Part shown: in pieces, positions 42,842 through 45,626 of the stretch | Layout of the letters: each line of letters begins with the position of its first letter | How positions within the stretch are numbered: position 1 is the first letter of the stretch | From: Actinomycetes bacterium | Lineage (GTDB): Bacteria > Actinomycetota > Aquicultoria > UBA3085 > Oleimmundimicrobiaceae | DNA length: 47,896 bases | NCBI GenBank assembly: GCA_030614255.1 | Contig: JAUWKI010000009.1 | Coordinates: 1 to 47,896 of the forward strand | Direction of reading: 5' to 3' | Made by a program: the position numbers and the translations under genes | Notes under the pieces: generated by a model | Seen by the model: only the letters and a program-made list of their open reading frames with translations | Database searches by the model: none | Told to the model about the DNA's origin: nothing

Positions 42842-42929
42842 GTCGGAGTGGCGGAATTGGCAGACGCGCTAGGTTGAGGGCCTAGTGAACATTTAGTTCA
42901 TGGGGGTTCGAGTCCCCCCTCCGACACCA
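42842..42929 (+). tRNA. tRNA-Leu(GAG)
   Basis: An 88-base class II tRNA. Acceptor GTCGGAG (42842-42848) pairs with CTCCGAC (42919-42925), followed by A and CCA encoded in the DNA. Anticodon stem CTAGG/CCTAG encloses loop TTGAGGG with anticodon GAG (42876-42878). The long variable arm (TGAAC/GTTCA) and a GGGGG-TTCGAGT-CCCCC T-arm are present. Its 3' end is the apparent integration site of the following region. Confidence 0.95.
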
Positions 42930-43035
42930 CTTTTCAAAAGTCTACATAAATCTTCAATAAGCTACACACATAGTTAAAATTCTGGTTATTATTCTCTATA
43001 TTCATCTATTGTCTTTAGGCGTTTGTATACAGTAA

Positions 43036-43131
43036 AATTGGCAGACCTGCCTGCCGGTAGGCACGGCGCGCTAGGTTGAGGGCCTAGTGAACAATTAGTT
43101 CATGGGGGTTCGAGTCCCCCCTCCGACACCA
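43036..43131 (+). pseudogene. Partial tRNA-Leu copy broken by a 21-bp palindromic unit
   Basis: From AATTGGCAGAC through CCA this copies 42855-42929 with one substitution (ACAATTAG for ACATTTAG). The 5' acceptor strand is missing. A 21-bp unit (43047-43067) is inserted between positions equivalent to 42865 and 42866, breaking the D stem. It cannot be a functional tRNA, but it is a good remnant of an attachment-site crossover. Confidence 0.9.
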
Positions 43132-43196
43132 TATGCCTAGTTCAGAGTGTATATTTTTGCTCTGTTTTTTGTTTTAAGAAAATTCTAAAAGGATTT

Positions 43197-43640
43197 CTAT
43201 AGTAGACTTCTTATTTCTGCAGGAAGCAGTTTCTTAATTAATTCATAATAACTGTTAGTAAATCCGATAATATCTTTTGCTTCTTTTTCGGAAACGAGGC
43301 CAGCCCTGCGATAGATTGTCGCATTTCTTTTTTGGCGCATTCGTTGAAGACGCTTTATTGTCGAGTGATGGGTTTTTGGGAGTGTTTCTGATAGAAAGCG
43401 GAAGGTATTGGCATGTTTAGCTTCGCCTCTTGGCCGATAACCCAGGGAGTTCATGTAAGCTAAAGAAATTTGTAAGATTGCGTTGTAGGCAATTGAAAAG
43501 GCCCAGTCAAGATCGGAGTCAATTAAATTTTTAGACGTTTTAATATCGCGCTGTGCCACCTTAAAGAGGTTTACAATCTCTTCAGGGGAAACTTCGACCG
43601 GTTCGATAATTCGTTGTCTAAGCAAGTCTTCGTAACTCAT
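43197..43640 (-). CDS. HEPN-domain protein, partner of an MNT protein
   Basis: The 147-aa helical protein has HEPN features: AQRDIKTSKNLIDSDLDWAFSIAYNAILQISLAYMNSLGYRPRG and the C-terminal RMRQKRNATIY. In toxic HEPNs an R-x4-6-H motif is expected here. In this protein RN is followed by Y and no His, so RNase activity may be lost or carried by other residues; the Tyr could be the AMP-accepting one. ATG43640 has GGAG six bases upstream. It overlaps the MNT gene. Confidence 0.7.
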   Translation of the reverse strand: MSYEDLLRQRIIEPVEVSPEEIVNLFKVAQRDIKTSKNLIDSDLDWAFSIAYNAILQISLAYMNSLGYRPRGEAKHANTFRFLSETLPKTHHSTIKRLQRMRQKRNATIYRRAGLVSEKEAKDIIGFTNSYYELIKKLLPAEIRSLL

Positions 43641-44199
43641 CTTCGGCTCCAATTAAAAATATCTTTTTATTTTTTAATACATCGTTTACAAAAGACTCTT
43701 TCTTTTTAATCCTTTCTCCCCATTCCTTGGGAGCAAATACGGTATAATTAATAACTCTTTGCAGTGTCTTTTCTGCTTCGCTTGTTATTTCATTTAATAT
43801 ATCAAGATTTGGGTTACCGATGATCATTAAATCGATGTCTGATTTTGCATCCTCAATGTTTTTGGCAACTGAGCCATAAATGAAAGCCATTTGAATGTTA
43901 CCTATTTCGGTTAGTTTGTTTTTTAAGACGTCTGAGATACCAACGGTCTTAAGGATGATGTTTTTAAGTTCGGGATAGATTGAAAAGTTCTTGTTGACCC
44001 AATAATAGCGCAAATTTGCTTCTTTGCTTGTTTTTAATAATCCAGCATCATGAAGTCTCTTTAACTCCTTCTGAAGTGCTGAGTGAGGAATTTGAAGTCG
44101 TTTAAACAGCTCGGTATAGTAAAATTTTTCCTCTGGGTGAGTAAGGAAGAAAGTTAAAAGCTTAACTCTTGATTTTGAGTTAATGAGTATTGAAAGCAT
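43618..44199 (-). CDS. MNT-type nucleotidyltransferase with N-terminal winged helix
   Basis: The 193-aa protein has an N-terminal winged helix (KFYYTELFKRLQIPHSALQKELKRLHDAGLLK) and a nucleotidyltransferase core with GSVAKNIEDAKSDIDLMIIG. It likely AMP-modifies the overlapping HEPN partner and represses the pair. ATG44199 has AAGGA seven bases upstream and is preferred to the longer start at 44238, which overlaps the promoter -10 box. The pair is in the tRNA-Leu-associated island. The overall architecture matches the pair at 16501-17467, but the sequences are very different. Confidence 0.78.
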   Translation of the reverse strand: MLSILINSKSRVKLLTFFLTHPEEKFYYTELFKRLQIPHSALQKELKRLHDAGLLKTSKEANLRYYWVNKNFSIYPELKNIILKTVGISDVLKNKLTEIGNIQMAFIYGSVAKNIEDAKSDIDLMIIGNPNLDILNEITSEAEKTLQRVINYTVFAPKEWGERIKKKESFVNDVLKNKKIFLIGAEDELRRLA

Positions 44200-44221
44200 A
44201 ACAACATCCTTACTATTATTG

Positions 44222-44266
44222 TGGTGTAATTGCACCATTATTATGATACATTGGCGTTTTTGTCAA
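44222..44266 (-). promoter_or_regulatory. Promoter and operator-like palindrome of the second MNT/HEPN pair
   Basis: On the minus strand TTGACA (44261-44266) and TAATAA (44238-44243) are 17 bases apart. Just downstream, 44222-44237 reads TGGTGTAATTGCACCA on the plus strand, a palindrome with one mismatched pair that covers the likely transcript start. Confidence 0.65.
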
Positions 44267-45408
44267 TAGTTTGATTGGGTTCTATACATATGCAACATAG
44301 AAGGACTTTTATTATACATCATTTTTTGCTCCACAAATTCAATTGGAGTAAGTAGATTTAGACTCCTGTGCGGTCTGTAAAAGTTGTATTCAATAAGGCA
44401 GTCATAGAGGATTTTGTTTATCTCTTTTACGCTGGTCTCTTCATAGATGCGGTCTAAATATTCGTTTTGGATGGTATCACCGTGCCTACCGGCAGGCAGG
44501 CAGGCAGGCAGGCAGGTTTACTTTCTCCACATAACAGTTCATCTTGGGTGACTTTGGATAGTTGTGAATTAAGGTGACACCCACTTTTTTTGCTTCGATC
44601 TCAAAGTATTTAGCAAACTCTCCTCCATTATCTACCTGAACATAGGTTAAATCCTTGCTGTAAAGATAGTTTAATCTCAAAAGAAAATCTTTGCCGTTTA
44701 AACTGTTTAGTTTCCGGTAGGCCCTTGCAAAAAGAAGCTTTGAGACAGGGCATACGGCGGTAAAAATATAGACCTTCATCCATTTAGCCTAAGCTCTATG
44801 GTGTCGGCCTGTAGCCCTGCCTGCCGGTAGGCAGGGCATTCAGATGCTTTACCAACCATATCCTTCTTTACTTGATTGAGCCTCACCTTGTTCTTCTTTC
44901 TCGTTTTTGCCCTCTTTCTTGCCACCTTAGTCTTGGGAAGCATGAAACGATATTGAGAAAGTATCCGACCGACGCTGCTTGCCGAGACGTTTATCTTACA
45001 TTCTCTTTCAAGTATCCTTTTTATCTTCTCTTTTCCAAAGTAGGGATACTTTCTTCTAATCTCACAGACGGCGTGTTCTACCTCGTAGGTCCTAACGACT
45101 TTTCGTCTTGTCCTTTTGGGTTTTTTGGATTTATCTTCCAAAGACTGAAGTACCCTTGAGTTGTAGGATTTTCTCCAACGATAGAAGGTCGATCTATCTA
45201 TCTCAAATATTTCACAAATCTGTTCTACGGTGTACTTTTTGCTTTTGTAGAGATTTATCGCCTTTAACTTTATCTTTGCTTTTTCTGATAGCTTCTCATA
45301 GTAGACTAACTTGAAGGTTTTCTTGGGAAGATAAACGCTTCTGTAGCTTATGCTGCAGGGAGTACCCCTGCCTGCCGGTAGGCAGGGCACTTTTCCTTTC
45401 ATATGCAA
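44263..45408 (-). pseudogene. Degenerate DDE transposase (IS3/IS481-like)
   Basis: An HTH (YTVEQICEIFEIDRSTFYRWRKSY) and rve-type catalytic core (YVQVDNGGEFAKYFEIEAKKVGV; IQNEYLDRIYEETS...FYRPHRSLNLLTPIEF) are spread over three reading frames. There is a break at 44776-44779 and a stop at about 44490, inside a palindromic insertion. Three palindrome insertions (44481-44516, 44814-44837, 45365-45388) add sequence such as CPAYRQAG and NLPACLPAC. It is inactive unless these are spliced or bypassed. Confidence 0.8.
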
Positions 45409-45467
45409 CCTCTCTAGATGATAGTTAAAACACCGACTATTTTAATCTATCGATGTTGCATATGTAT
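44284..45467. mobile_element. Decayed IS element with 15-bp terminal inverted repeats
   Basis: ATACATATGCAACAT (44284-44298) and its exact complement (45453-45467) bound a 1184-bp element containing the broken transposase. I see no clear target duplication. Confidence 0.75.
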
Positions 45468-45563
45468 CTGAACTTATTCATAGTTTTACAAATAACACCG
45501 TTAAATGCTTAAACTCCCAGCTTATCAAACATTATAACTTTAGGGTCTTTTGTTAAATACCTT

Positions 45564-45575
45564 CCTCCGACACCA
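45564..45575 (+). repeat. 12-bp tRNA-Leu 3' end repeat (candidate attR)
   Basis: CCTCCGACACCA matches the last 12 bases of tRNA-Leu and of the damaged copy. It is followed by TTTTT and a terminator, as expected of the original 3' flank of the tRNA gene. Confidence 0.65.
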
Positions 45576-45582
45576 TTTTTCC

Positions 45583-45626
45583 AATTCAAAGTAGGTGTTT
45601 GCTATCTGCTTTGAATTTTTTATTTT
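45583..45626 (+). terminator. Terminator, probably the original tRNA-Leu terminator
   Basis: AATTCAAAG (45583-45591) pairs with CTTTGAATT (45609-45617), then a T-rich tail (TTTTATTTTTT). It lies eight bases after the tRNA-end repeat. The rest of the spacer to 45811 shows no feature. Confidence 0.75.

Follow-up and report, generated by a model that had tools for sequence, protein, structure and literature searches.

The tRNA-Leu(GAG) gene of this contig is followed by two further copies of its own 3' end, which raises the question of what was inserted behind the gene and in how many steps. The locus was analysed within a window of 47,896 nucleotides, the whole stretch of DNA under study. Our preferred reading, at a probability of roughly 0.6 for the model as a whole, is that two insertions occurred here, behind the tRNA of a conserved oppF/tRNA-Leu(GAG) locus, and have since eroded to a scar. 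Three tRNA 3' ends imply two events, and we speak of a scar rather than an active island because the ORFs of the interval, which comprise HEPN, MNT and transposase pieces only, include no integrase, as the initial annotation had observed.

The tRNA-Leu(GAG) 3' ends and the site in relatives

The 12-mer CCTCCGACACCA, corresponding to the last 12 bases of the tRNA, had exactly three occurrences across the 47.9-kb window, at 42918, 43120, and 45564, and none in some 87 kb of sequence from elsewhere in the genome. All three ends reported by the initial annotation were recovered at the positions it gave. The features of this part of the locus are as follows:

42842-42929, plus strand: intact tRNA-Leu(GAG), the putative regenerated target (attL side), called by ARAGORN and Rfam
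42930-43035, no strand: 106 bp between the intact tRNA and copy 2, the putative remnant of a first element (element A)
43036-43131, plus strand: copy 2, tRNA positions 14-88, a putative displaced 3' fragment (attR), non-functional as a tRNA
43046-43066, no strand: 21-bp palindromic insert CCTGCCTGCCGGTAGGCACGG in the D-arm of copy 2, forming a filled/empty pair with 42855-42873
45564-45575, plus strand: 12-bp tRNA-Leu tail CCTCCGACACCA, a putative second displaced 3' fragment

Copy 2 was identical to the intact tRNA at 74 of 75 positions (98.7%, one mismatch), and ARAGORN made no call at 43036-43131. It had been described as a 5'-truncated copy; the copy and its coordinates stand, whereas truncation alone does not describe it, because the 21-bp insert at 43046-43066 had been overlooked. 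The T-loop TTCGAG is common to the intact tRNA and copy 2, while the other class members examined have TTCAAG, so the two are close kin. Of the 19 further tRNA-Leu loci surveyed in relatives (18 GAG and one AAG), a single one carries a downstream repeat of its 3' end, which places the pattern well above chance. In that one locus (G034:C114:15631-15719, L048), from another family, 23 bp of the tRNA-Leu(GAG) 3' end recur independently at +181, making it a further very small scar at this tRNA. Such tRNA fragments, together with tandem arrays, are a known island signature (PMC4383910, PMC9897764).

Comparison with relatives revealed oppF followed by tRNA-Leu(GAG) in G003, of the same family, and in G012 and G005, of other families; G004 has a more distant opp operon beside tRNA-Leu(GAG), and the contigs of G001 (same genus) and G002 end inside oppF. 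In G003 the order is uninterrupted, running from oppF to the tRNA and to a hairpin terminator directly 3' of it, after which comes an unrelated gene for a 211-aa membrane protein. The initial annotation had predicted that empty relatives would show the tRNA directly followed by its terminator and then the sensor gene; the first part was seen in G003, but the membrane protein gene stands where the sensor gene had been expected. No relative showed synteny with the right flank.

The 5' flank of the intact tRNA matched that of G003 with a local score of 56 (shuffle maximum, 22.5) and is, as judged by this homology, the ancestral flank. The 5' flank of copy 2 showed no match to the G003 flank, and the 106 bp at 42930-43035 showed no homology to the G003 empty site (p 0.87 against the G003 flank). 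Thus G003 matches the outer flanks of this pair, 5' of the intact gene and 3' of copy 2, and neither of the two that face the inserted 106 bp. Insertion behind the tRNA is supported by the uninterrupted G003 locus, and the oppF/tRNA-Leu(GAG) order is found in two other families as well.

To the right of the interval, a sigma-28-like promoter (45736-45763; TAAAG-N15-GCCGATAA) lies upstream of the PAS/GAF sensor gene, and the same motif occurs upstream of another gene at G001:C29:31711. This was the only good match to the upstream region of the PAS gene; it was rejected as synteny, being a shared sigma-28-like promoter with an unrelated gene adjoining.

The HEPN/MNT pair and the IS481-like element

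Both genes of the MNT/HEPN pair noted earlier are present in the interval, and the insertion sequence noted beside them is broken. The features are as follows:

43197-43652, minus strand: HEPN, PDC-M05B-like (Pfam PF05168; PADLOC PDC-M05B, E 1.5e-25; homologues)
43618-44238, minus strand: winged-helix and MNT nucleotidyltransferase, PDC-M05A-like (PADLOC PDC-M05A, E 1.2e-57)
44237-44266, minus strand: candidate hybrid promoter for MNT-HEPN (11/12 consensus match, spacer 18)
44261-45490, minus strand: IS481-like insertion sequence (NF033577; ends defined from copies in G000-G003)
44480-44516, no strand: palindrome insert in the IS with an AGGC expansion, adding a stop to the transposase
44814-44837, no strand: palindrome insert in the transposase gene, in frame (ECPAYRQAG)
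45366-45388, no strand: palindrome insert near the transposase N-terminus, in frame (PCLPAGRG)

PADLOC found adjacent M05A and M05B genes, the arrangement of the candidate phage-defence system PDC-M05; the MNT gene likely starts at Met14, near 44199. A HepT/MntA (type VII) toxin-antitoxin system was rejected, since the R-X4-6-H motif is missing from the HEPN protein (MRQKRNATIY), as it is from the homologues inspected, and the MNT protein scored 25.3 bits against the MntA equivalog, far under the cut-off of 60. Relatives of the MNT gene at 62-64% identity were found elsewhere in the class, in other families and some with internal stops, and none stood beside a tRNA within the fetched flanks. 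The pair is therefore mobile cargo, unspecific to the tRNA-Leu site.

The IS transposase is frameshifted at 44776-44779, and the element holds the three palindrome inserts listed. Its two transposase pieces scored 77.8 and 38.2 bits, under the curated IS481 cut-off of 224, with IS481 still the best family; we therefore name it IS481-like. The IS end TGTCAA would supply a -35 box TTGACA (44266-44261), with a -10 box AATAAT in the flank, so that an IS-derived hybrid promoter possibly drives MNT-HEPN. Elsewhere, at L122 (G001:C59:290-360) and L129 (G000:C21:9630-9703), both IS481-like ends are joined with almost nothing between them, as MITE-like derivatives.

Terminators and the order of events

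Two hairpins compete for the role of the original tRNA terminator:

43143-43170, plus strand: terminator A, directly 3' of copy 2 (TATGCCTAGTTCAGAG...)
45583-45617, plus strand: terminator B, with a 15-bp stem (TTTTTCCAATTCAAAG...)

The 12-bp tail at 45564-45575 is followed immediately by terminator B, as first described, and the stem of this hairpin is perfect over 15 bp (folding z = -5.3). Terminator A had been overlooked. In ungapped comparison with the 3' flank of the G003 tRNA, the flank of copy 2 matched at 30 of 45 positions at the same offset (rank 1 of 333,468 positions) and that of the 12-bp tail at 24 of 45, a level reached at 31 of 95,702 positions; the intact tRNA's own 3' flank gave no match (12/45). 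Local alignment scores were 20 for copy 2 (shuffle p <0.002) and 15 for the tail (p 0.096), and gapped global scores were nearly equal (14.75 and 14.5); this comparison involves one relative and two T-rich terminators. Terminator A is probably the ancestral terminator of the tRNA, a preference rather than a proof, and the earlier assignment of that role to the 45583 hairpin is not upheld, given the better fit of the copy 2 flank. With terminator A fitting the relative's better, the HEPN/MNT block probably lies outside the cleanest att pair, that of the intact tRNA and copy 2.

Under the preferred reading, an element with its own copy of tRNA positions 14-88 would have recombined into the tRNA, presumably through a tyrosine integrase, regenerating the full gene at 42842-42929 and pushing the original 3' half (copy 2) to the right, most likely together with the original terminator (43143-43170). 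This element would since have been reduced to 106 bp, with the intact tRNA and copy 2 as its attL and attR. In a second event the HEPN/MNT block, PDC-M05-like, would have arrived, now ending in the 12-bp tRNA tail and its own terminator; it would later have gained the IS481-like element and lost any integrase. Last, copies of the 21-bp palindrome would have entered copy 2 and, three times, the IS. When set against the Islander tests, the locus has an intact tRNA at one end, a displaced 3' fragment of like orientation at the other, and an empty site in one relative (G003); an integrase between the ends is lacking. Two points count against the model: if terminator A is ancestral, plain serial integration leaves the 12-bp tail and terminator B unexplained, and no integrase or other element gene remains in the interval.

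The initial annotation had proposed two serial integrations at the tRNA 3' end with terminator B as the host original, in which case terminator A would have come with the attP of an element, perhaps from a G003-like host. Insertion behind the tRNA and at least two events survive from that proposal, and the place given to terminator B does not. Serial integration does leave the host flank most distal, a strong terminator stands immediately 3' of the tail, an imperfect 21-bp repeat links the two sites (42918-42938 and 45564-45584), and the tail flank resembles that of G003 beyond chance; however, the copy 2 flank fits G003 better in both the ungapped and the local comparison, and an attP bearing a tRNA-Leu terminator is required. 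We consider this version unlikely.

Decay of an old tandem set of tRNA-Leu(GAG) genes, all followed by a terminator and with the HEPN/MNT pair and the IS inserted between them, would account for the resemblance of the terminators after both fragments to that of the relative. It is improbable, as just one GAG gene occupies this place in the relatives examined, copy 2 lacks a homologous 5' flank despite its high identity, and the sequences 3' of the intact gene and of copy 2 are unrelated. The same difference in downstream sequence disfavours a simple tandem duplication of the tRNA. An assembly error, with unrelated contigs wrongly joined at tRNA or palindrome repeats, is conceivable in a draft genome of 52 contigs with palindromes near contig ends. 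It is nevertheless scarcely credible: a point mutation and a 21-bp insert distinguish the copies, which are therefore not one sequence placed twice, and each junction is spanned by unique sequence.

As read here, the island is a routine case of tRNA genes collecting and shedding DNA of foreign origin: its cargo is a candidate defence module, and a terminator has probably been pushed away from its gene.

The 21-bp palindrome and comparison with known systems

The 21-bp repeat, strictly a near-palindrome, is a more unusual lead than the ordinary island. In the D-arm, the intact gene reads AGA directly followed by CGCGC and copy 2 reads AGA-CCTGCCTGCCGGTAGGCACGG-CGCGC, so that copy 2 serves as a witness: the intact gene 200 bp away gives the exact state before and after the 21-bp insertion. 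Further copies of the family occur in the window at 3391, 13683, 15835, 15946, 16136, 17638, and 20330. The 13-bp core had 66 exact copies in the genome and its reversed control had none; the 16-bp core gave 80 matches in G000 and 60 in G001, with strands counted apart so that perfect palindromes count twice. Among 60 genomes the 16-bp core was present in 12, with a patchy distribution among relatives, and a Moranbacteria genome (G063) showed 15 forward and 16 reverse matches. Alignment of 65 copies revealed that the flanks CC...[C/G]GG are also conserved, and in many cases one copy sits precisely at the midpoint of another.

Copies were also found in frame within protein genes, namely rimI (YYSDT-CLPVGTA-GEDAVVM), ahbD (KKKEVP-RAYRQAG-IQLKATC), ccmF, and a chlD-like gene (L188, G000:C37:54000-57100) with two inserts, SSHRAYRQAGNQ and IRPCLPAGRNG. 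Residues 16-154 of RimI correspond to model positions 1-132 and residues 1-346 of AhbD to model positions 1-339; each is exactly seven residues longer than its model and scores above the curated cut-off.

From the filled and empty pairs we infer that the palindrome is mobile, and it resembles an unusually small mobile element. More specifically, CCTGCCTGCCGGTAGGCACGG may be a seven-codon mobile element, open in five of six frames, that inserts precisely without loss of frame, has spread across bacterial phyla, and targets rimI, ahbD, ccmF, the chlD-like gene, the tRNA copy, the IS, and its own centre; we hold this reading tentatively, at slightly less than even odds. If mobile, it would be, to our knowledge, the smallest in-frame mobile palindrome. 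A literature search for the palindrome sequence or its peptides returned no relevant paper. The tRNA pair and the in-frame copies in genes expected to be functional make its mobility testable, and it could account for insertions of seven residues in proteins from uncultured bacteria.

Genes for Y1_Tnp (RAYT-type) transposases were present in 11 of the 12 palindrome genomes and in 20 of the 48 others among the 60 relatives, and of the 24 genomes at the greatest distance, G037 and G052 alone carry either the palindrome or Y1_Tnp. This co-occurrence is suggestive, but flanking palindromes are missing, and RAYT was rejected as the mobiliser: 17 of 20 Y1_Tnp loci checked had no palindrome in the fetched flanks, three had one within about 1.2 kb on one side, and none had palindromes on both sides. 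A phage origin was likewise not convincing: the palindrome gave 65 viral-contig stretches, a scrambled GC palindrome 24.

Compared with Islander islands (PMC4383910), the locus shares the regenerated tRNA, the 3' fragments in the same orientation, and more than one fragment per tRNA, as in tandem arrays; it differs in having no integrase, 106 bp in the best att pair, and a second fragment of 12 bp. The cargo resembles the HEPN/MNT module PDC-M05A/M05B of PADLOC in both genes and their adjacent order, the family being widespread in the class, although this HEPN lacks the R-X4-6-H motif of HepT-type toxins and the function is a candidate only.

The Rickettsia palindromic elements, of 105-146 bp, insert in frame into conserved protein-coding genes and also enter RNA genes (PMC2229807). 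The palindrome described here is alike in being palindromic and in both kinds of target, but its unit is 21 bp, it nests in its own centre, and it occurs in unrelated phyla; membership in that family was rejected, and the two work alike only. REP sequences with RAYT (Y1) transposases share with it a short, abundant, GC-rich palindrome and, in nearly all palindrome genomes, the presence of Y1_Tnp, whereas the palindrome here is also inserted inside genes.
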